A stretch of DNA of 52,999 bases from contig WFSG01000017.1 of assembly GCA_015486075.1 (NCBI GenBank), positions 1 through 52,999 on the forward strand, given 5' to 3'. Made by a program: the position numbers and the translations under genes. A model generated the notes under the pieces. That model did no database searches. It was not told where the DNA came from and worked only from the letters and a program-made list of their open reading frames with translations. Every line of letters starts with the position of its first letter. Position 1 is the stretch's first letter. Shown here piece by piece: positions 8,607 to 29,068 of the stretch. The DNA comes from Deltaproteobacteria bacterium (lineage in GTDB: Bacteria > Desulfobacterota > Desulfomonilia > UBA1062).

Positions 8607-8930
8607 TCAATGTCTCCTTGCCCTTGCAGATGCAGCTGCTTTCATCAATGATGCCATCCACTCCATGTTGGAGCACCTTGAAAATAGTGGTCTCAATATC
8701 TCCATCTGTTCCAGTATCTTATCCTTGAGCTCAGCCGTATCCATGGCTGCCCCTGTTTTATCGTCGCTTGCTTCAACCATGACTGATGATACACCACGCC
8801 GCTTAAGCCCTGCTATGATGCCATCGCTCAGTACTGTACCTTCCTTTACCATGACCATCCCGCTTGCATCCTTGACATCACGTGCCAGCCTCATGCCTGG
8901 AACAAGGTTCGATGTATCTTGTTCCCTCAT
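8607..8930 (-). CDS. Small stand-alone HD-GYP-associated module protein
   Basis: A 107-residue protein with no recognised enzymatic motif. Residues about 6-50 (NLVPGMRLARDVKDASGMV and following) resemble the C-terminal module of the HD-GYP regulator encoded three genes away (NLEPGFVLAEDVKTKSGLL), with the same L-PG-LA-DV-G-L-G-L-I spacing. Such segments often flank HD-GYP domains. The remainder, about 55-107, is charged and helical with two cysteine/methionine-rich turns. Its ATG at 8930 overlaps the stop of the PAS kinase as ATGA, and its stop is three bases before the HDOD start, so it is embedded in the operon. Function unknown; an adaptor between the kinase and the HDOD or HD-GYP proteins is plausible. 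Confidence 0.75.
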   Translation of the reverse strand: MREQDTSNLVPGMRLARDVKDASGMVMVKEGTVLSDGIIAGLKRRGVSSVMVEASDDKTGAAMDTAELKDKILEQMEILRPLFSRCSNMEWMASLMKAAASARARRH

Positions 8931-11900
8931 CTCTCTTTGGCCTCCTGGTTTTGCTCCTGCTTCATAGGTAGGGTTATGCTAACCCTTGTGCCCTTCCCCT
9001 CAACGCTGGTTATGTCAATGTCGCCCCTGTGCATAAGTACTATCCTCTGGGCAATGCTTAGGCCTAAACCCCTTGCACCAGGGTCACCCTTTGTAGTGTA
9101 AAAAGGATCAAATACCCTATCGATGTCCCCATCTTTTATACCCATGCCAGTATCCTCTATCACGACTTTTACCTTGCTATCCTCTGACATTGTCTGTACA
9201 AGCACTTTCCCTCCCTTGCCGACCGCCTGCAGGGCATTTTCTATAATGCACTTAAAGGCCTGCCCGAGTTCAGCTCCGTATGCTTCCACGTAGGGGATAT
9301 CCCTGTATTCTTTCTCTATACTGATGCCATCTGTTGCCCGAGAAAGTATGTCTAGGGTTGAGTCTAGAAGCTTGTTTATTGATACCTGGGTGAGGCTGGG
9401 CTTGTCCACGTGACTGAATTCCTTGAGGCTCTCAACTATTGACCTTATTCTGTATGTGCCCTGCATGGTCTCTTCAATGATGTCATGGGCGTCTTTTACC
9501 ATGAGGTCAACCATGTCCTTGTTCCAGACCTCATTGATCTTGCGCCTGATGGGATCAGAGAGGTTGTTCTTGAGACTCTCTAGTGTGTGTAAAAAATCCA
9601 AGGTGTGATCCAGATACCTTCCAAGGGTATTCAGGTTGGACATAATAAAACTCAATGGATTATTTATCTCGTGTGCCATGGTAGCAGCCAGATAGCCTGT
9701 TGTTGCCATTCTCTGCTCATGGACAAGCATTGCCTGAGTTTGCTTGAGTTTTCTGAGTGCATCCTCTAGCCTGTGATTGGTCTCTTTGAGCCTGTTCTCG
9801 TTTTTCTTCAAGGCCGTGATATCCTGGGCATTGTACTGCATTTCCTTTACATTGCCATCGATATCCCTTATTACGCTGGCACTTGCCAGCACATCTACAA
9901 GGTCACCTTTCTTTGTTTTTATCTTAATCTCATAGTTTTTAGACACGCCTTTAAGGGTCTCCCTTCTTATTTCTATAAAGTCCTTGATGTACTTGGGAGG
10001 GCTAAACATGGTTATAGGCTTGCCTAGTATCTCATCTATTGAATAGCCAGCTACCTCCTCGACCTTTTTGTTGGCACTAATTATGTAGCCCTGTGAATCA
10101 ACGGTTATGATCATCTCGTTGGCACCTTTGAACAGGGTCTCGAATCGATCCTTGGCCTGCCTGAGTTTTTCTTCTGTGTGTTTTCGGTCTGTTATGTCAC
10201 GTATAATACCAACAGCATACCAATCACCATCTATCTCAAGAGAGGACATGGAGAGCTCGATTGGGAATTCAACGTTGTCTTTTCTCAATGCACTGAGTTC
10301 GAGTGTTTTTCCAATAGCATCCCCCTTACCATGTAACTGGTATGTCTTGAATGCCTTTCTGAATGCATCCCTGTATTGTTCGGGAGCAAGCACTTCATGG
10401 AGGTCTTTGCCCAAGATCTCTACCTTTGAATAGCCAAATATCCTTTCTGCTGCGCTGTTCCAGAAGGTTATCCTGCCATGGTTATCCATCATTATGATTG
10501 CATCTAGTGCATTGGACGTTATGCTTCTGAGCTTTTTCTCGCTCTCAACGAGTCTTTTTTCTAGTTTCCTTTGCCCGGTTACATCTATGAAGCTATCTAT
10601 TATGTATGGTTGGCCGTCTATGGACGTGAGCCTTGCTGTCTTTTGCAGGAAGAGTGTATCTCCGTTTGCGGTTATGGTCTCGTACTCGCTGTTATCAATG
10701 TCCTTGCCCATATCTGTTATGGGGCATTTACCCCCTGCCATTGGACAAAGAAACTCATAGCAAGGCTTACCGACTAGATCCTTACGCTCAAGCCCGAGGA
10801 GGTTCAATGCATGGATATTTGCATCTACTACCTCGTGATTCGAGGCATCTATGATCACGATGCCGGCATGCACGTTGCTCAGGACTGCATCAAGACGTTC
10901 CTCGTTCTTACGCATGGCATCCAGGGCCTTCTTCTTGTCGGTTATGTCGAGGAGCTGACCTATTACCTGCACACCTTTGTTGGTATCCTTTACCATGGAG
11001 ACCTTAACCTCAATGCGCCTCTTGTCACCACCCTTGGTCAGAAGGTCAAACTCGTACACAGAGCGGGCTTCCCTGCCTTGTTTCCTTTTCAAGTACTGTT
11101 CTACAACGTATTCTATGCTAGACCTGTCCAGGAATTCCCTGAAATCATGACCTATCATCTCGTCTGTTGGATAGCCGGTTATGTGTGAGGTCTGCTTATT
11201 TGCGTAGGTTATGTGGAAATCTTCATCCAGTAAGACTATTCCGTCATGGGAATTTTCTACGATGGCCCTGTATTGCTCGCGGTTTCTTGAGAGCTCACCT
11301 TCCAAGATCCTTTGCTCTGTTATGTCCAGCCCTGAACTGAGTGTGCCGGTTATGTTACCATGCCTATCCCTTATCAGGCTATTGTGCCACGCTATTATAC
11401 GCTCTTGGCCGGACCTTGTCACAACGGTATTCTCGTGATAATCCGCCAGTTCTAGGTCTCCTTCTAAAATCTTTTGGAACAGATGCTTGAGGCTTGGTCT
11501 ATCCTTATCCGGTATCACGGTATCGAACCAATTTCTGCCAACGATCTCGTGCTTTTTATACCCTAGTATCTCAAGGCCTTTTCTGTTGATAAGTTCCACA
11601 TTCTGGTCAGAACTTATGGCAACGATCATGGTACCTGCTATGTCAAGATATTGCTGGGCCTTTTCCTTTTCCTCGTTCAACCTTATCTCTGCTCTCTTGT
11701 TCTCGGACACGTCCTGTGCATTGTACTGGATCTCAACGATCTTTCCTTGTCCATCCCTTATGACACTTCCGCTGGCAAGTACATGTGCAACATATCCTGT
11801 CTTTGCCAAGACCCTTAGCTCATACCTGGCGATGAGTCCGTTTAGAAGGTCCTTCCAGAACTGGATAAACTTTGTCTTGTCCTCCGGGTAAGCGAGGGTT

Positions 11901-12424
11901 AATATACTTTTACCCGCTAGCTCTTCCTTTTTGTAGCCTGAGAATTCTTCTGCCTTTCTGTTCATCCTCATTATGTAGCCGTTGGGATCGGTTGTTATTA
12001 TCAGCTCACCCGCTCTTTCAAACAACGCCTCAAACCTGGCCCTTAAATCATCATCTGATGTGCTTTGATTACTTTCTTTTGGCCCGTCATCACAGCCAGG
12101 ACAGGACTCTGGTATGAATTTACCAAGGCCTTTTAGTATCACCAGGAACACGCCACTTACCGAGGCCATTATGCCTATTTCCTTCATGTCGGAGTAAAGG
12201 CTTACATTAATGCCAAAGACCATGTGCATAACAAGCATGGCAACGAGTAGAAAAAGCATACCCACTAACCAACCTGAGAGTCCCCACCACAAGGACATCA
12301 TCAAGATAGGTATGTAGTAAAGTTGTAGAGATATCTGAGAGAAATTGCACATAGTGATCAGGATAACAATCATAGAGGCGAGCATTACAAGTATTACTTT
12401 CTTACTGGTCGTACTGTGTCCCAA
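8927..12424 (-). CDS. Membrane histidine kinase with six PAS domains
   Basis: A 1,165-residue hybrid sensor. The N-terminus (about 10-105) has about four hydrophobic helices with very short loops, then six consecutive PAS domains (about 130 to 885), each closing with the PAC-type signature such as NAQDVSENK or DITDRK. The fourth PAS carries a cysteine cluster (CYEFLCPMAGGKCPITD) that could bind a metal or respond to redox. The kinase core has the H-box MAHEINNPLS with phospho-acceptor His918, the N-box IENALQA, and G-boxes EDTGMGIKD and GARGLGLSIAQ. PAS domains 1 and 6 look alike (both end SVIRD...EMQYNAQD), suggesting internal duplication. The start is a TTG at 12424, two bases after the response-regulator stop; an AGG-rich stretch lies just upstream. 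No receiver domain is fused, so the adjacent regulators are the likely targets. Confidence 0.9.
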   Translation of the reverse strand: MGHSTTSKKVILVMLASMIVILITMCNFSQISLQLYYIPILMMSLWWGLSGWLVGMLFLLVAMLVMHMVFGINVSLYSDMKEIGIMASVSGVFLVILKGLGKFIPESCPGCDDGPKESNQSTSDDDLRARFEALFERAGELIITTDPNGYIMRMNRKAEEFSGYKKEELAGKSILTLAYPEDKTKFIQFWKDLLNGLIARYELRVLAKTGYVAHVLASGSVIRDGQGKIVEIQYNAQDVSENKRAEIRLNEEKEKAQQYLDIAGTMIVAISSDQNVELINRKGLEILGYKKHEIVGRNWFDTVIPDKDRPSLKHLFQKILEGDLELADYHENTVVTRSGQERIIAWHNSLIRDRHGNITGTLSSGLDITEQRILEGELSRNREQYRAIVENSHDGIVLLDEDFHITYANKQTSHITGYPTDEMIGHDFREFLDRSSIEYVVEQYLKRKQGREARSVYEFDLLTKGGDKRRIEVKVSMVKDTNKGVQVIGQLLDITDKKKALDAMRKNEERLDAVLSNVHAGIVIIDASNHEVVDANIHALNLLGLERKDLVGKPCYEFLCPMAGGKCPITDMGKDIDNSEYETITANGDTLFLQKTARLTSIDGQPYIIDSFIDVTGQRKLEKRLVESEKKLRSITSNALDAIIMMDNHGRITFWNSAAERIFGYSKVEILGKDLHEVLAPEQYRDAFRKAFKTYQLHGKGDAIGKTLELSALRKDNVEFPIELSMSSLEIDGDWYAVGIIRDITDRKHTEEKLRQAKDRFETLFKGANEMIITVDSQGYIISANKKVEEVAGYSIDEILGKPITMFSPPKYIKDFIEIRRETLKGVSKNYEIKIKTKKGDLVDVLASASVIRDIDGNVKEMQYNAQDITALKKNENRLKETNHRLEDALRKLKQTQAMLVHEQRMATTGYLAATMAHEINNPLSFIMSNLNTLGRYLDHTLDFLHTLESLKNNLSDPIRRKINEVWNKDMVDLMVKDAHDIIEETMQGTYRIRSIVESLKEFSHVDKPSLTQVSINKLLDSTLDILSRATDGISIEKEYRDIPYVEAYGAELGQAFKCIIENALQAVGKGGKVLVQTMSEDSKVKVVIEDTGMGIKDGDIDRVFDPFYTTKGDPGARGLGLSIAQRIVLMHRGDIDITSVEGKGTRVSITLPMKQEQNQEAKER

Positions 12425-16921: not shown

Positions 16922-18334
16922 ATGGCATCTGGATTACACGAATCTTGCGGTGTTTTCGGCATATTTGGAGATGAACATGCCGCAGAGAAAACGTATCTAG
17001 GCCTGTATGCATTGCAGCACAGGGGACAGGAGAGTGCCGGTATATCCGTGTCCGATGGCCATGTCTTGTCCATCTACAAGGGCATGGGACTGGTAAGGTC
17101 AGTCTTTAATAGCCCTGACATACTAAAGGGCCTCAAGGGTTTTTCTGCAATAGGACACAACAGGTACTCAACCGAGGGCGAATCCAAGATCATAAATGCC
17201 CAGCCAATACTCATACAGTTCAGGGGTGGCCAGATAGCTGGTGTACATAACGGTAACCTGGTAAATGCACTGGAGTTGAGGAAGCACATGGAAAATACGG
17301 GTTCCATATTCCAGACCACTTCTGATAGCGAGATAGTACTGCACCTTATAGCCCGTTCAAGCGAACAGGAAATGGTGGAAATGGTATACGATGCGCTAAA
17401 GAGGCTCGACGGTGCATTCAGCTTTCTGTTTCTGACCCCTGACAAGCTGATCGCGGCAAGGGATACCTATGGCTTCAGACCTTTATGCCTTGGAAGATCA
17501 GGAGATGCAACGGTGGTAGCATCAGAAACGTGTGCGTTTGACATAATTGGAGCAGAATACCTGAGAAGCGTTGAGCCTGGTGAGATGGTTATCATAACGC
17601 GTGACGGTGTGGAGTCAAGGATGCTGCCTCAAAGAGGGCGAAGGGCAATGTGTATATTTGAATACATCTATTTTTCCAGACCTGACAGTATTATTTTTAA
17701 CGACAAGGTGGACAAAATCAGGAGAAGACTGGGTAAAACCTTGGCAAGGGAGGCACCAGCAGAGGCGGACATAGTCATTGCCATACCAGACTCTGCCAAC
17801 ACAGCTGCCCTTGGCTATGCACAGGCGTCAAACATGCGCTTTGAGATAGGTCTGATTAGGAATCACTATGTCGGCCGTACATTCATAGACCCAGAACAGG
17901 GAATGCGGGATATTGACGTAAAGGTAAAGTTCAATCCTGTTACAGGTGTACTAAGGGATAAGAGGGTAGTTGTTGTTGACGATTCCATAGTAAGGGGTAC
18001 CACGCTCAGGCAACTTGTAAAGATCATCCGGGGCGCCGGGGCTAAGGAGGTACACGTAAGGATAAGCTCTCCACCGGTTGTATCTCCCTGCTATTATGGA
18101 ATAGATATATCGCGTAGCGGAGAATTGATTGCATCATCCAAGAGCGTGCAAGAAATACTCAAGTTCATCGGTGCAGATAGTCTCGCCTACCTCTCGGTCG
18201 AAGGTATGCTCAGCACGGTCTCTGATAGTGACTCTTTCTGCACCGCTTGTTTTACAGGTGAATATCCTACACCTGTACCACATAATTACGACAAGATGCA
18301 GCTTGGTCTGGGTAAAACGAATGGGTGTGTCTAG
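16922..18334 (+). CDS. purF: Amidophosphoribosyltransferase
   Basis: First committed step of purine synthesis: phosphoribosyl pyrophosphate + glutamine to phosphoribosylamine. The 470 residues begin with a short propeptide, MASGLHES, which must be removed to expose the nucleophilic Cys9 of CGVFGIFG. Other glutaminase residues are present (HNRYST, NGNLVN, SDSEI). The phosphoribosyltransferase motif VVVVDDSIVRGTT is near residue 355. Cysteines at RRAMCIFEY, SPCYYGID and FCTACF match the four ligands of the [4Fe-4S] cluster in the Bacillus-type enzyme, so this is the oxygen-labile iron-sulfur form, fitting an anaerobe. The ATG immediately follows the dapL stop, with AGAGG upstream. Confidence 0.96.
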   Translation: MASGLHESCGVFGIFGDEHAAEKTYLGLYALQHRGQESAGISVSDGHVLSIYKGMGLVRSVFNSPDILKGLKGFSAIGHNRYSTEGESKIINAQPILIQFRGGQIAGVHNGNLVNALELRKHMENTGSIFQTTSDSEIVLHLIARSSEQEMVEMVYDALKRLDGAFSFLFLTPDKLIAARDTYGFRPLCLGRSGDATVVASETCAFDIIGAEYLRSVEPGEMVIITRDGVESRMLPQRGRRAMCIFEYIYFSRPDSIIFNDKVDKIRRRLGKTLAREAPAEADIVIAIPDSANTAALGYAQASNMRFEIGLIRNHYVGRTFIDPEQGMRDIDVKVKFNPVTGVLRDKRVVVVDDSIVRGTTLRQLVKIIRGAGAKEVHVRISSPPVVSPCYYGIDISRSGELIASSKSVQEILKFIGADSLAYLSVEGMLSTVSDSDSFCTACFTGEYPTPVPHNYDKMQLGLGKTNGCV

Positions 18335-19891: not shown

Positions 19892-22800
19892 CTAGATGAT
19901 GTTCTCTATTATCTTCTCTGCAATCACCTGCTCTGGCTCTCCCAGCAGAAAACCTGTTGACAGCTTCTCAAGGTAGTTATCATTCCAGTTTATGTTTGAC
20001 TCGTTCACCAAGTCCTTTACGTTGTAATACTTCTCACCGAGTATGTCTCTTTTCTCCGATGGGGACAAGGACTCGTTAAATGTTACATGGCACAGCAGCA
20101 GGTATGATACCAGATGCTTCTCTCCTAGTATGGGCACTATAACAATGGGGGCTCTGTCTGAACGTCCGAATCCCACGTACACGTTCTGGGTATTTACTAT
20201 GGTCTTTTTCGTGCCTATAAGTGGGCCGGGGGTTTCTACTCTGGACCTCATGGAGAGAGAGACACCCCCCCTGGATGCTATGGATATGGTAGTAGTGTCA
20301 GTTGTCTTTCCCTGATCATCTAGGCCATCTATGGTATAAAGGGTATAGCCCCTGAGTTGAGAAAGGGCAAGCTGTATCCTCTTAAGAGTAAGGCCCACAT
20401 CTATACCCAAGTTTTCCACAGAGAAATTCAGCTCCTCAATTAGATCGAATATTATACCCCTTAAGTGCTCTTTCTTCCTGCTCGTACCAACGGTTACTGT
20501 CTTGGCCTGGTGCCTTATGGCGTCAACTGGCCTGGATAGTTCATCAATGGCAAGCGCCAGTTCCATGTCTAGTGCATCCAGGGGCGAGGGAGATGTCCTT
20601 TTATCCTTGAAGTCTTCCCAGAAATCCTCCAGGGGTAGTTTACCAATGGCATACTTTAAGAGAAGGGTGATGTCAGAAGCTGTACCAACCTTCATGGTAG
20701 TAAAAAAACCCTGGTCTTTCCTCCTATGAAATTCCCTGGAAAAGCCGGTCACCAGTTCCTTGACTCTCTTATCTGCCATGGTTTCGAATACTGACAACCC
20801 CTTCCTGTCGTGTTCAATCATCTCCCTTGCAAGCTCGCTCCTGAACCTCCTGAAAAAACTGGCTTCGTCGTTTATGCTACATGCTGCATAGTATCCCCAT
20901 AGATGACCGGCAAGAGTATTGATTATCACGGATACAGGGAAAGATGTTCTGGGCACACGTATGATCGAATCGGCAACTAGCGAGAACCTAGTGTCACCTT
21001 CCTCTGCAATTACGGCAATAGACGCGTTGTGTGCCTTGAATATGGAAATATCCTTTACAATGTCGTCCTTGACAGTCTCAGGGTTGCCCGCAGTACACGC
21101 AATAATCAATGGTTCACTAGAGAGATCAATATGTTTTTTGTCCTCTATTATATCCGAAGAGATGGTCTTGTAGCAGAGTTCGCTGAGCTTAATTCTTATC
21201 TCGTCAGCCGCTACCTTGTTGGCACCACTACCAACAACGGCCCAGTACCTTTTTCTCCTGGCAAGGACGTAGGCCGACTCCCTTATTTCGTCCCTTCTCC
21301 TTATGACCCTCTGCATCATCTCTGGAGCCCTCTCCAGATAGGAAAGTTGCCTTACTATGCTAGCAGGCGAAATGGTTCCGAGCTCATGTGCAAAATAGAG
21401 GGCCAGTATGTATCCTGCAACGATTTGAGAATAGAATGCCTTTGTTGAGGCAACAGCCATCTCCACGTCCCTGCCATCACTGGTGTAGAAGATACCGTGT
21501 GCCTTAGTGGTAATATCAGACTGTCTCCTGTTAACAATGGCAATTATGTGTGCACCCTTAAGTCTTGCCATGGACACAGCCCTGTTTGTATCCGTTGTAG
21601 TACCTGACTGTGTAACGGCGATAACAAGGGAATCCCCCAGTTCTTCTCTTATAAGAAAACCGCTTAAGTCAGATGCTGTCCTTCCTGATATCTTTATGCT
21701 CGTGCCCTTAAGGTAAAGTTGCATGGCCTCGGCAATAGCACATGCAGCCACGTGGGCAGTGCCCTGGCCAATGACATATATGTTTGTCACCTTGCCAGTC
21801 TTAAGCGCATGCCTGAGCCTTCTAGGGACCATGTCATCCCCTATGTTAAAGACTATATCATGCTCGGATGGCCTTGTACCAACGACCCTGTACTTGCCCC
21901 TTAATGTCTTTCTCACAGATGATGGCGCATCGAAAATCTCCTTAAGGAGGAAATGGGGATGGTTTCCCCTGTCAATATCCCTTGTCGTTATCTCTGCCCT
22001 CTGGACGTCCTTATCTGTCAGGTGTAAGGGAAATCCGTCATAGTAAAAGGCTTCTATGCCATCCAGACCTTTCTTATGCTCGCCAAGTATGAATATCTGT
22101 CCCCTTGTAGAAGGGTCATCTTCGGTTCTTGGCGTTTCCCCATCCATCTTTATAAAGTATGGGGTGTATTCGACTAGGCCGTAAATTTCCGAAGAAAACA
22201 CGTATTGATCGTCACCTAGGCCCACATAAATGGATTGTCCGCTCCCTTTGAGTGCGAGGAACACCTTGCCCGGTTCGAGGTTACTCTTCATGGCAATGGC
22301 ATGGGAACCCTCGAAGTCATTAACCGCAAGCCTGAAGGCCTCCTTGAGCCCATGTCCTGCAAATAGGTGCTTTTCTATGATGAGAGGAATTATTTTTGTG
22401 TCTGTTGTAATGCCCGGGTCTATTAGGTTATTGTCATTTTCCTCAAGTCTCGACCTAAGCCAAGCATAGTTATCTATGTCACCGTTCAGGGCAACATCTA
22501 TGTACCAGCTACCTCTGCCGTAATATGGATAGTCCTTGATAGGCACCTGGATATTGGCCTTTGAATCCGCATGTGTTCCCAGTGTAAAGTTGTTCACAGG
22601 ATGGCAATTGGCCTCGTTTATCGATCCAACCGAGGCCCATCTTGTATGAGCTATGCAGGCGTCAAGGCTTGTCTTGAGACCTGAGAATGTATGCAAGACA
22701 GTATCAGAGCGTATCTCGTTTCTCAGGTTCCTGACATTCTTACCAAGCTCACCTGTTATTGATGCTGTCTTGTACGTAAACGAGACTGACCTGCCATTGT

Positions 22801-23638
22801 CCATGGATATTGAAATAGACCCGTTCATTAGGTCCCCGGGACGTGAACGCCTTATAAAATCGTTTAGCAGACCCTTTTCCTTGAGTTTAGTCAGGGCCCT
22901 TTCCATATCCATGGCCGTGTTCATCCTCAGCGTAAGCTGTATTCCTGCTGAGTCCCTGCCCCTTACCTCTAACCTGTCAATGGAATTCAGCAAAAAGTTT
23001 GCGGTCTTATATATACCCAGACCTCCGTTGAGCAGGCCCTCAGGTGCCTTTGTTGGTACGAGCGATAATACGCCATCCCTATTTGCGAGAATGTCGTTCT
23101 TAAGCCCCCAGGCAAAATCCTTGAGCCTTGTGAAAGAATCGTTAATCCTCTCCAACTCAGCAGAATCGAAACGGCTAGCGTTGTTTTCTATAGCCCTTTC
23201 TTCTTCCACGACAAATTCATTAATATCATTTGAGAGTGTGGTAAATGCCTCGGCCTTCCTAGGATGGGTAAGGATATAGCGCAAAAAATGCTCCTGCTTG
23301 AGCCTTACAAGGTACCTCTCCATGGTATTAAACGCCCTTTTGCCACCAAGATACCTTGTGGTGGATATTGATCCATCAAGCACTTTGTTTATGTTTGAGG
23401 CCTTTATTCCCTTAAGAAATGCCTTTAATCGTCCAGGGTCTATTCTCTTGCCATTGCTGCCGTTCTTTATAACCAGAACCCCTGCTAGACCGCAGTATAA
23501 CGTGCAGTCCATTATCGGGAAGAATACCATTGAGCCAAGGGGTACGTCTTTGACATGCCTTGCAACGTACACACGTACATGTCGTAGACTAAGACAGATT
23601 TTCTTAATATACTCTAGAATCGAAGTTCTCACAAGCAT
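19892..23638 (-). CDS. glmS: Giant GlmS-like glutamine-fructose-6-phosphate aminotransferase
   Basis: About 1,248 residues, twice the ~610 of ordinary GlmS, which makes glucosamine-6-phosphate. Glutaminase landmarks survive but are spread out: CGLAGVLV with Cys49, RGRDSAG (226-232), HTRWASVG (331), LNGDIDNY (384), TDT (412). In normal GlmS the first two are about 25 residues apart, here 177. The linker HFLLKEIFDAP (562) and first SIS domain with TQSGTTTDT (676) and VASTKAF are conventional. The second SIS domain is divergent but keeps KKHIDLSS; the catalytic-lysine tail AIRHQAKTVTVG (Lys1046) is displaced by about 120 inserted residues and followed by about 195 of unknown function. Start taken at ATG 23638 (GAAAGG six bases upstream); a GTG at 23659 is possible. 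The cysteine is not N-terminal, so cleavage would be needed for activity. Confidence 0.82.
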   Translation of the reverse strand: MLVRTSILEYIKKICLSLRHVRVYVARHVKDVPLGSMVFFPIMDCTLYCGLAGVLVIKNGSNGKRIDPGRLKAFLKGIKASNINKVLDGSISTTRYLGGKRAFNTMERYLVRLKQEHFLRYILTHPRKAEAFTTLSNDINEFVVEEERAIENNASRFDSAELERINDSFTRLKDFAWGLKNDILANRDGVLSLVPTKAPEGLLNGGLGIYKTANFLLNSIDRLEVRGRDSAGIQLTLRMNTAMDMERALTKLKEKGLLNDFIRRSRPGDLMNGSISISMDNGRSVSFTYKTASITGELGKNVRNLRNEIRSDTVLHTFSGLKTSLDACIAHTRWASVGSINEANCHPVNNFTLGTHADSKANIQVPIKDYPYYGRGSWYIDVALNGDIDNYAWLRSRLEENDNNLIDPGITTDTKIIPLIIEKHLFAGHGLKEAFRLAVNDFEGSHAIAMKSNLEPGKVFLALKGSGQSIYVGLGDDQYVFSSEIYGLVEYTPYFIKMDGETPRTEDDPSTRGQIFILGEHKKGLDGIEAFYYDGFPLHLTDKDVQRAEITTRDIDRGNHPHFLLKEIFDAPSSVRKTLRGKYRVVGTRPSEHDIVFNIGDDMVPRRLRHALKTGKVTNIYVIGQGTAHVAACAIAEAMQLYLKGTSIKISGRTASDLSGFLIREELGDSLVIAVTQSGTTTDTNRAVSMARLKGAHIIAIVNRRQSDITTKAHGIFYTSDGRDVEMAVASTKAFYSQIVAGYILALYFAHELGTISPASIVRQLSYLERAPEMMQRVIRRRDEIRESAYVLARRKRYWAVVGSGANKVAADEIRIKLSELCYKTISSDIIEDKKHIDLSSEPLIIACTAGNPETVKDDIVKDISIFKAHNASIAVIAEEGDTRFSLVADSIIRVPRTSFPVSVIINTLAGHLWGYYAACSINDEASFFRRFRSELAREMIEHDRKGLSVFETMADKRVKELVTGFSREFHRRKDQGFFTTMKVGTASDITLLLKYAIGKLPLEDFWEDFKDKRTSPSPLDALDMELALAIDELSRPVDAIRHQAKTVTVGTSRKKEHLRGIIFDLIEELNFSVENLGIDVGLTLKRIQLALSQLRGYTLYTIDGLDDQGKTTDTTTISIASRGGVSLSMRSRVETPGPLIGTKKTIVNTQNVYVGFGRSDRAPIVIVPILGEKHLVSYLLLCHVTFNESLSPSEKRDILGEKYYNVKDLVNESNINWNDNYLEKLSTGFLLGEPEQVIAEKIIENII

Positions 23639-23691
23639 CTTAGTCCTTTCACCGGCCACATGTAAGCTATAGTATTTCTCGTAAACTATCT

Positions 23692-26874: not shown

Positions 26875-27986
26875 CAAAATCACTCCGTTTGTCTTTAGCC
26901 ATTGCCTTGTGCTTCCTGGTTATTGCATCAAGCCCATCACGGGCATTGTCTGATTCGTTTATTACAGTACAAGGCATAGGATCCATAGAGCAGGGCAACA
27001 TGGCAAAGGCGGAGTACCTTGCACTGAACGATGGTTTCAATAAGGCACTCCTCACAAAGGCCATGCAGATGGTTCCAACATCACAAATACATGCGCTTCT
27101 AGAGGCGTTTCCCGAGTATCTATCCATAAGGGGTACAAGGGACATTACGCAGTACCAGATAACAAAGAGATCAGAGGAAAACAACGTACTTGTACTTACC
27201 ATAAACTTACAGATAGGCGATTCACACCTTAAGCAATGGCTTGACTCAAAGACACTTACAATACCAACTGAATCCAGACCAAGGATACTTGTTGCTATCT
27301 CTTATACACAGGACCAAGGAGAAAAACCGTATGCATGGTGGGAGCAGGTGGGTAAGTCCAGGTATTCCTCTTTTGAGAAAACCCTAGTAGACAGGCTTAG
27401 TATGTGGGGTGAGAATGTCTTCTCAACCCCTCCAGGCCAGGTAGCTTACAGCAAAGAAAATGGTGGTCTCGTGGATATGGCAAAGAACACAGGTGCCGAC
27501 ATTATCCTAACAGGTACAATGGCCTATGCTAGAGATGAACAGGGGCTTTACACCTGCACCCTTCATCTTGACATGATCGACACCCAAAAAGGCACAAAAA
27601 TGGGTTCGTGGAGCATAAAACATGTTTCTGACATAGCACCAAAGGACATGAATGCCTTTCTGTCAAAACAGTTAATTTCACCCATACGCGCAAAAATAAT
27701 AGGCGACATACTGGCGATGAATCCCGTGGTCAGCACTGAAACTCTCTGCATAGATGGTATCAGGGACTACACCACGTACCAAGCCATGGTAAATGCACTG
27801 GGTGCAATGGAAGATGTGCTAAAGATAACCCCGTGTAGCATCAAGCAACACGCCATATGTCATACTCTTACTATAAGGGGCAGTATCACATACATTCTAG
27901 AGGCATTGAAGGCGGAGCAGATAACGGACATGGATGTCGAAATCAAACCAGGCGGTGCATATATAAAGATCATAGAACACCCTTAG
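26871..27986 (+). CDS. Secreted protein with FlgT-N-like domain
   Basis: A 371-residue exported protein. Residues 1-26 form a signal peptide ending near SPSRALS. The next about 90 residues (FITVQGIGSIEQGNMAKAEYLALNDG...) resemble the N-terminal domain of the flagellar assembly protein FlgT and related periplasmic proteins. The middle (about 140-240) resembles a TolB-N/FlgT-M-like module (GADIILTGTMAY), and the end carries beta-rich repeats. FlgT itself is a flagellar basal-body H-ring component in Vibrio, but no flagellar genes lie here, so a general periplasmic or outer-membrane-linked role is more likely. It is translationally coupled to hfq. Function not established. Confidence 0.7.
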   Translation: MTKSLRLSLAIALCFLVIASSPSRALSDSFITVQGIGSIEQGNMAKAEYLALNDGFNKALLTKAMQMVPTSQIHALLEAFPEYLSIRGTRDITQYQITKRSEENNVLVLTINLQIGDSHLKQWLDSKTLTIPTESRPRILVAISYTQDQGEKPYAWWEQVGKSRYSSFEKTLVDRLSMWGENVFSTPPGQVAYSKENGGLVDMAKNTGADIILTGTMAYARDEQGLYTCTLHLDMIDTQKGTKMGSWSIKHVSDIAPKDMNAFLSKQLISPIRAKIIGDILAMNPVVSTETLCIDGIRDYTTYQAMVNALGAMEDVLKITPCSIKQHAICHTLTIRGSITYILEALKAEQITDMDVEIKPGGAYIKIIEHP

Positions 27987-27992
27987 GGGTGT
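27977..27992. other. Hairpin over convergent stop codons
   Basis: Perfect 6-bp inverted repeat ACACCC-TTAG-GGGTGT. It covers the stop codons of both the secreted-protein gene and buk, which overlap by four bases. No T-tract follows on either strand, so it is not a standard intrinsic terminator. Confidence 0.45.
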
Positions 27993-29068
27993 AGTACATT
28001 GCCAGAAGGATAATCAAGCAAACTCTCTTGCCTTGTTAGCACCCTTAGGCCACCTTCCACTAAAGCTGCTATCTCGTCTTCACCAGGGTAGACCATTATG
28101 TCTGCTATGAAACCTACCATGCGTGTTATCCATGACACTAGCATTTTGGAGTTAGCTAGCCCACCTGTGAGTACTATTGCATCCACGTTACCTTCCAGTA
28201 CCACTGACATGGCACCTATGCATTTTGAGGCTTGGTAGGCCATGGCCATGTAGACAGTCCTTGCATTCCTATCTCCCTGTTCGATCATGGCTTCGATCCG
28301 CTGTGCATCCTTGGTGCCAAGATAGGCAAAGAGCCCTGATCTATTGCTTAACTTGGACTTGATATAGTCTGGGCTTTTGCCCTGTGACAACACCAAGTCT
28401 ACTATGTCCAGGGTGGGCAGCTGACCTGCCCTCTCTGGCGTGAAGGGCCCTTCGCTCAGCCCATGGGTCGCATCTATCACCCTACCCTTTTTGTGTGCAC
28501 CAATGGTTATACCCCCTCCCATGTGAGCAACAACAAGGCTGGTTTTATCGTAAGGTTTTCCCAGTACCTTACATGCCTTTCTCGCAGCTGCCTTCTGGTT
28601 CAAGGCATGGAATGCGCTCTTTCTTTCTATGGAAGGAATACCGGTGACCCTGGCTATATCTTGTAATTCGTCAGTACTAGGTGGATCTACTACTACGGCT
28701 TGTTTGCCGTACATACCTGCTAATTTAAGGGTTATAGAAGGTCCAAGGGCAGATGGGTGCCAGCCAAACCTTCCCGAGAGCAAGTCATCGCACATCTTTC
28801 TGTTGATCCTGTACACCCCGGAGGGACCGGGGGCGCAAAGACCACCCCTGCTGACAAATATGTCTATATCTCCAAGGTCCACTCGCTCCTGGTACAGGGC
28901 ATGCATTATGCCTATTTCCCTTGTTTCAAGCTGTTCCTGTACACCCTGTCCGGCTAGTACAGTGCAAGGTATGTTCCACCTGCGGCTTAACTTACCCTCT
29001 TTGTAGAGGCCAAGTTTTGTCGAGGTTGATCCTACGTTTATGGCAAGTACACTATAATCTTCCCCCAT
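27983..29068 (-). CDS. buk: Butyrate kinase family acyl kinase
   Basis: Phosphorylates butyrate (or branched/aromatic acids) reversibly, making acyl phosphate and, in the catabolic direction, ATP. The 361 residues show the acetokinase-fold start VLAINVGSTSTKLGLY, VAHMGGGITIGAHKKG near residue 185, and the late motif LTGGLANSKMLV. Length and motifs fit butyrate kinase rather than acetate kinase (about 400 residues). It follows the phosphate-acyltransferase pair by five bases, so the three genes should make CoA-ester to acyl-phosphate to acid plus ATP. The true acyl chain is not evident. The ATG at 29068 has AGGG upstream. Confidence 0.92.
   Translation of the reverse strand: MGEDYSVLAINVGSTSTKLGLYKEGKLSRRWNIPCTVLAGQGVQEQLETREIGIMHALYQERVDLGDIDIFVSRGGLCAPGPSGVYRINRKMCDDLLSGRFGWHPSALGPSITLKLAGMYGKQAVVVDPPSTDELQDIARVTGIPSIERKSAFHALNQKAAARKACKVLGKPYDKTSLVVAHMGGGITIGAHKKGRVIDATHGLSEGPFTPERAGQLPTLDIVDLVLSQGKSPDYIKSKLSNRSGLFAYLGTKDAQRIEAMIEQGDRNARTVYMAMAYQASKCIGAMSVVLEGNVDAIVLTGGLANSKMLVSWITRMVGFIADIMVYPGEDEIAALVEGGLRVLTRQESLLDYPSGNVLHP

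Follow-up and report, generated by a model that had tools for sequence, protein, structure and literature searches.

Bacteria depend on GlmS for the first amino sugar of the cell wall, and the enzyme is both a target for drugs and a textbook case of ammonia channelling. The window analyzed here, a stretch of 52,999 nucleotides from the deltaproteobacterial contig WFSG01000017.1, encodes a GlmS-like protein of about double the usual size, in which 48 residues precede the presumed nucleophilic cysteine. As class II amidotransferases use an N-terminal cysteine (PMC9140057), the locus raises the question of whether this giant protein serves as the glucosamine-6-phosphate synthase of its host and, if so, how its cysteine could become N-terminal.

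A single intact gene with a buried cysteine

The gene and its start region comprise the following features:

19892..23638, minus strand: giant GlmS-type gene (ATG at 23638, stop at 19892, 1248 residues), a single intact open reading frame
23644..23650, minus strand: Shine-Dalgarno sequence GAAAGGA, 5 nt before ATG 23638, from the sequence and the start scan
23659, minus strand: alternative GTG start

The minus-strand frame 19892..23659 is open over 1255 codons. ATG 23638 is likely the start, and as it is the best candidate and is accompanied by GAAAGGA, the nucleophile is numbered Cys49, which agrees with the 48 preceding residues counted in the initial annotation. The additional statement that no start codon adjoins the cysteine was correct in substance, but in-frame ATGs do exist at positions -12 and -6 relative to it. 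We rejected both as starts, as neither has a Shine-Dalgarno sequence and the conserved leader described below lies upstream of both.

The unusual length and the two near ATGs could in principle reflect an artefact, be it a frameshift, a gene fusion, or a mis-called start. We regard this as practically negligible, as the same architecture recurs in tens of independent genomes, one of which (G181) is a single contig, and as the leader is homologous in 37 sequences. A frameshift or fusion was discarded specifically because the gene is collinear and stop-free in most independent assemblies of relatives, and the giant gene is therefore not a sequencing artefact.

In profile searches, the protein matched the Pfam models SIS (9.3e-14) and GATase_6 (1.9e-6) as well as the NCBIfam models NF001484 (2.6e-74) and TIGR01135 (6.1e-68), the latter two under their curated cut-offs. 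The TIGR01135 equivalog cut-off of 418 bits was missed with 230 bits in the protein search and 199 bits in the genome search. The second-best SIS matches were NagB-II type SIS deaminases (NF046059, 8eol).

The enzyme core is that of the GlmS/GFAT superfamily

A profile of 47 giants aligned with 14 ordinary GlmS proteins, including that of E. coli K-12, over 599 columns (hhalign P=100, E=8.7e-67), and the homology to the GlmS/GFAT superfamily spans the glutaminase and both SIS lobes. Two AlphaFold2 models (pLDDT 82) matched human GFAT-1 and E. coli GlmS in fold over the whole length when compared by Foldseek, with E values of about 1e-25 to 1e-23 for both models and TM scores of 0.75-0.76 when normalised by E. 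coli GlmS. The catalytic elements were located as follows:

23492..23494, minus strand: Cys49 in the motif CGLAG, presumed N-terminal nucleophile (E. coli Cys1); invariant in 30 aligned relatives, with leaderless relatives starting directly before it
22631..22648, minus strand: HTRWAS motif (R73 and W74 of E. coli GlmS), invariant, from the profile alignment with GlmS
22478..22489, minus strand: LNGD motif (N98-G99 of E. coli GlmS, oxyanion hole), invariant, from the profile alignment
20921..21985, minus strand: two-lobed SIS isomerase region, from the motifs QGTA, TQSGTTTDT, VASTKAF, EIRIKLSE and KKH, the Pfam SIS match and conserved residues
20486..20515, minus strand: C-tail motif RHQAKTVTVG with the catalytic lysine (E. 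coli K603), internal, invariant in 30 relatives

All tested glutaminase and isomerase residues are present, in agreement with the initial description of a GlmS-like enzyme whose motifs are in order but spread by what proved to be four extra segments. In the 30 relatives, the equivalents of E. coli C1, R26, R73, W74, N98, G99, and D123 in the glutaminase and of T302, Q348, S349, T352, S401, E481, K485, E488, and H504 in the isomerase are invariant. The residue roles named here are those of the E. coli enzyme. Replacements relative to E. coli GlmS are S303A, S347T, E351T, T76S, and H77V/N.

The C-tail of GlmS carries residues of both active sites (PMC8041777). RNLAKSVTVE of E. coli corresponds to RHQAKTVTVG of the window protein in identical register, with the equivalents of R599, A602, and K603 invariant in the 30 relatives; this equivalence is based on the RxxAK[ST]VTV motif, as the hhalign alignment ended before the C-tail. 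Judged from homology and catalytic residues at the sequence level, the giant belongs to the GlmS/GFAT superfamily, albeit as a protein that scores under the curated glmS cut-off and departs from two architectural hallmarks.

Four extra segments double the size

The additional length is distributed over four segments:

22961..23470, minus strand: insert 1, which adds about 150 residues to the interval from CGLAG to RGRDS and is modelled as entirely helical
22676..22933, minus strand: insert 2, which lengthens the interval from GRDS to HTRW by about 55 residues, from spacing and profile alignment
20534..20881, minus strand: insert 3, helical, which sets the C-tail motif about 110 residues further from the second SIS lobe, from spacing and model
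19895..20485, minus strand: C-terminal extension, about 200 residues long and modelled as mixed alpha/beta

When the originally reported spacings were re-measured, they were upheld: the distance from the cysteine to GRDS is 178 residues (about 26 in E. coli GlmS), from GRDS to HTRW 104 (about 44), and from GHxWG to the C-tail lysine 135 (about 25), and about 200 residues follow this lysine in each full-length aligned member, compared with 5 in E. coli. Within each clade, the motif spacings are nearly constant (29 relatives). As the C-tail lysine is internal, closure over the sugar must use a loop that is anchored at both ends instead of a free tail.

Pfam and PDB profile searches with the extra segments gave scattered weak matches of the coiled-coil type and no convincing relative, and no Pfam or PDB family matched the C-terminal extension. 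By eye, this extension contains a GAF-like hairpin (VPL..G.LLLHV followed by a helix). In a direct comparison with GAF, hhalign placed the match on the expected hairpin with a probability of 4.6%, compared with up to 3.2% for column shuffles, and Pfam gave no hit. The profile comparison was not significant, and a GAF domain at the C-terminus of the giant is only a lead. Probably, the helical insert 1 and the C-terminal domain form an oligomerisation or regulatory layer.

The giant form replaces ordinary glmS

A scan of public genomes returned 13 loci with 50-60% identity in MAGs titled delta-proteobacterial, Desulfobacterales, or Syntrophaceae. When 60 relatives of the window's genome were compared, the giant was present in those of the same family, with 49-61% identity; a sister clade of the same class has a form of 1137-1170 residues at 36-40% identity. 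In an even sample of 394 genomes from the same phylum, counted at a threshold of >1200 bits, the giant form occurred in 55 genomes from 22 families of these sulfate-reducer-like bacteria; most of the other genomes have an ordinary glmS of 606-720 residues. We found no conserved operon around the giant gene, with guaA adjoining in few relatives, and no plasmid copies. Elsewhere in the window, we noted a 1165-residue sensor kinase containing four or more PAS domains (8930-12424, minus strand) beside a response regulator and a second kinase, and a 361-residue protein (27986-29068, minus strand) with a partial acetate-kinase match to model positions 173-341 of 392.

No ordinary glmS scored over the cut-off in 59 of the 61 carriers, whereas all 14 control genomes were positive, from which we conclude that the giant takes the place of glmS. 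An ordinary glmS is likewise absent from the window's genome, which is 100% complete, so that the initial impression of its absence from the window holds across the whole genome of this organism. As glmM (over its cut-off) and glmU-like genes are present, glucosamine-6-phosphate is needed there. The glmU gene is seemingly split, with one part in a 340-residue open reading frame at G000:C33:105500-106474 (L088; model positions 3-329) and a second part in a 421-residue open reading frame at G000:C5:142873-143577 (L089; model positions 234-444), beside glmM.

The low TIGR01135 score and the changes at S303, S347, and E351 could also point to a GlmS paralogue with another reaction, such as that of a different sugar isomerase or aminotransferase. 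However, such a paralogue would have to explain the replacement of the ordinary glmS in nearly all carriers, the presence of glmM, and the invariance of the E488, H504, K603, K485, and E481 equivalents, and we consider it very unlikely.

Two carriers, G038 and G199, have both the giant and an ordinary glmS, which may reflect either genuine coexistence or contamination; G038 is 86% complete and 5% contaminated. In three further genomes that are 94-100% complete (G008, G012, and G326), neither the giant nor an ordinary glmS was found, which likely reflects assembly gaps, as sister genomes carry the giant. Our search of mostly non-subscription literature on long GlmS proteins, on glmS of Desulfomonile, and on propeptides in a giant GlmS family returned nothing.

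The leader is translated, conserved, and lost in some relatives

The segment that buries the cysteine was defined as follows:

23495..23638, minus strand: 48-residue leader, putative propeptide, conserved from W/V-28 to -1

Most of the giants carry a leader of this kind, 40-50 residues in length. Its last 28 residues align gap-free across 37 sequences, with W-28 conserved in 22, G-23 in 34, P-20 in 30, F-9 in 32, P-8 in all 37, and L-2 in 26 of them, and with I or V at -12 and -11. The stretch from -12 to -8 is as conserved as a structural strand. The leaders had been picked by a pattern with a proline 6-10 residues before the cysteine, and as all 37 candidates passed, the count for P-8 was not inflated by lost rows.

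In the start scan, Shine-Dalgarno-backed starts of the leader-bearing relatives were mostly at -42 to -48, and none of the 37 had such a start within 14 codons of the cysteine. In two groups of close relatives, pN/pS was 0.20-0.61 in the leader and 0.13-0.27 in the mature part, with mostly higher values than in the leader for the codons upstream of it. As the leader thus lies between the mature part and the upstream codons, it is translated and under selection, though less tightly than the enzyme. The frames of four relatives (L021, L075, L077, and L013) are open far upstream of the conserved leader, with 245 residues before the cysteine in L077; these long frames are probably due to chance, and the true starts are uncertain in these cases.

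In the AlphaFold2 model, pLDDT fell below 50 in the ten residues preceding the cysteine, as would be expected for a linker that is to be cut. The basic, hydrophobic N-terminal helix found in most leaders (residues 2-12 in the model) would also suit a targeting or membrane-docking segment with a basic amphipathic helix at -42 to -30, or a leader that is cut by a separate protease, with the conserved part as the recognition site. Conservation, however, peaks near the cysteine and not in the helix, the residue at -1 varies (C, F, N, or Y) and there is no consistent protease-like motif, and the substrates and neighbours are cytosolic, all of which makes a separate protease or a targeting role unlikely.

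In the sister clade, every start codon directly precedes the cysteine. The same is true for L063 and L113, which are nested in leader-bearing clades: both start with ATG-TGC, so that the cysteine is codon 2, and the ATG follows its own Shine-Dalgarno sequence or an upstream stop. A nucleophile at position 2, where removal of the methionine would expose it, is found in the sister clade, L063, and L113, but not in the window gene with its Cys49. In a tree of 46 giants, leader presence needs exactly three changes, all forced by well-supported branches, and two of these are the losses in L063 and L113 inside leader-bearing clades. As the leaderless relatives start at the cysteine, it is simplest to assume that both forms end up with a free N-terminal cysteine and that the leader is a propeptide that can be removed.

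It could be argued that the leader is retained, with a glutaminase that either is silent or needs no free alpha-amino group for its function, and that the enzyme uses free ammonia, which is plentiful in anoxic sediments. The conservation in a fixed register exceeds what a discarded peptide needs, and class II enzymes without a free cysteine can still use ammonia, as known for E. coli PurF (PMC3261824). On the other hand, an unused glutaminase would not keep the cysteine and the equivalents of R26, R73, W74, N98, G99, and D123 invariant, and the sister clade and the two nested lineages start directly at the cysteine. Retention of the leader therefore appears improbable to us.

A proposed precursor of glucosamine-6-phosphate synthase

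We consider it quite probable that the giant is the diverged glucosamine-6-phosphate synthase of its host and that it is made as a precursor from which the leader is removed before Cys49. At the level of sequence, this view builds on the homology, the invariant catalytic residues, the replacement of glmS, the translated and conserved leader, and the relatives that start at the cysteine, and from these we infer the cleavage, its autocatalytic nature, the glutamine-driven synthesis of glucosamine-6-phosphate, and a structural or regulatory role of the inserts. Of the two options initially offered, a cleaved propeptide or a glutaminase that works differently, the first is favoured by the conserved translated leader, the leaderless relatives, and the invariant glutaminase residues, whereas a different mechanism found no positive support.

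According to this precursor model, the N-terminal Ntn glutaminase domain would take the amide nitrogen from glutamine and pass it to fructose-6-phosphate in the SIS domain. The first 48 residues would act as a propeptide, either helping the protein to fold or gating this step, and their removal before Cys49, most likely by the enzyme itself in analogy to PurF, would generate the free N-terminal cysteine. The C-tail lysine would form the Schiff base with the sugar, and the C-tail would roof the ammonia channel as an internal loop held between the helical insert and the 200-residue C-terminal domain.

Some aspects speak against the precursor model. Compared with the propeptide of PurF, the leader has a greater length and stronger conservation, and it might remain bound or serve a purpose of its own. 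The replacements at the sugar site and elsewhere, the missed TIGR01135 cut-off, and the three genomes with neither form argue in the same direction. A more far-reaching idea, which we put forward only tentatively, is that an essential entry enzyme of amino-sugar synthesis is held inactive by a long conserved prodomain and that its internal C-tail is coupled to a new C-terminal ligand-sensing domain, which would amount to a bacterial way of controlling the hexosamine pathway through allostery and maturation that differs from GlmS and GFAT.

A double-size form that replaces GlmS in many families of one phylum illustrates the extent to which this enzyme can be remodelled. Relatives that bear a leader, that have lost it, or that never had one provide a natural experiment on the gain and loss of Ntn propeptides, and the internal C-tail offers a test of whether the sugar Schiff base and the ammonia channel require a free C-terminus.

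Comparison with known systems

With GlmS and GFAT (TIGR01135/NF001484; E. coli GlmS 2J6H, human GFAT-1 6R4E), the giant shares the order of GATase II, SIS-SIS, and C-tail, the catalytic residues, the whole-length fold, and the genomic role, as it substitutes for glmS. It differs in its length of about 1250 residues, compared with 610-680, in the inserts within the glutaminase domain and before the C-tail, in the internal position of the C-tail with about 200 residues beyond the lysine, in the leader of 40-50 residues that buries the cysteine, and in several changes at the sugar site. The NagB-II type SIS deaminases are without a glutaminase domain and score much weaker. The large subunit of glutamate synthase (GltB), likewise a long class II amidotransferase, carries a propeptide some tens of residues in length ahead of its cysteine, but it has other synthase domains and no SIS domain.

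In B. subtilis PurF, the cysteine is exposed by cleavage of a short peptide (PMC3261824). PurF of this type and the giant are both class II Ntn glutaminases with residues before the nucleophilic cysteine, whose removal is known for PurF (PMC3261824, PMC9140057) and predicted for the giant. The window also encodes a PurF (16922-18334, plus strand) with eight residues (MASGLHES) before the nucleophile in CGVFG, which is predicted to need processing. The second domain of PurF is a phosphoribosyltransferase and its propeptide is short, whereas the leader of the giant GlmS is several times longer and contains a conserved motif.
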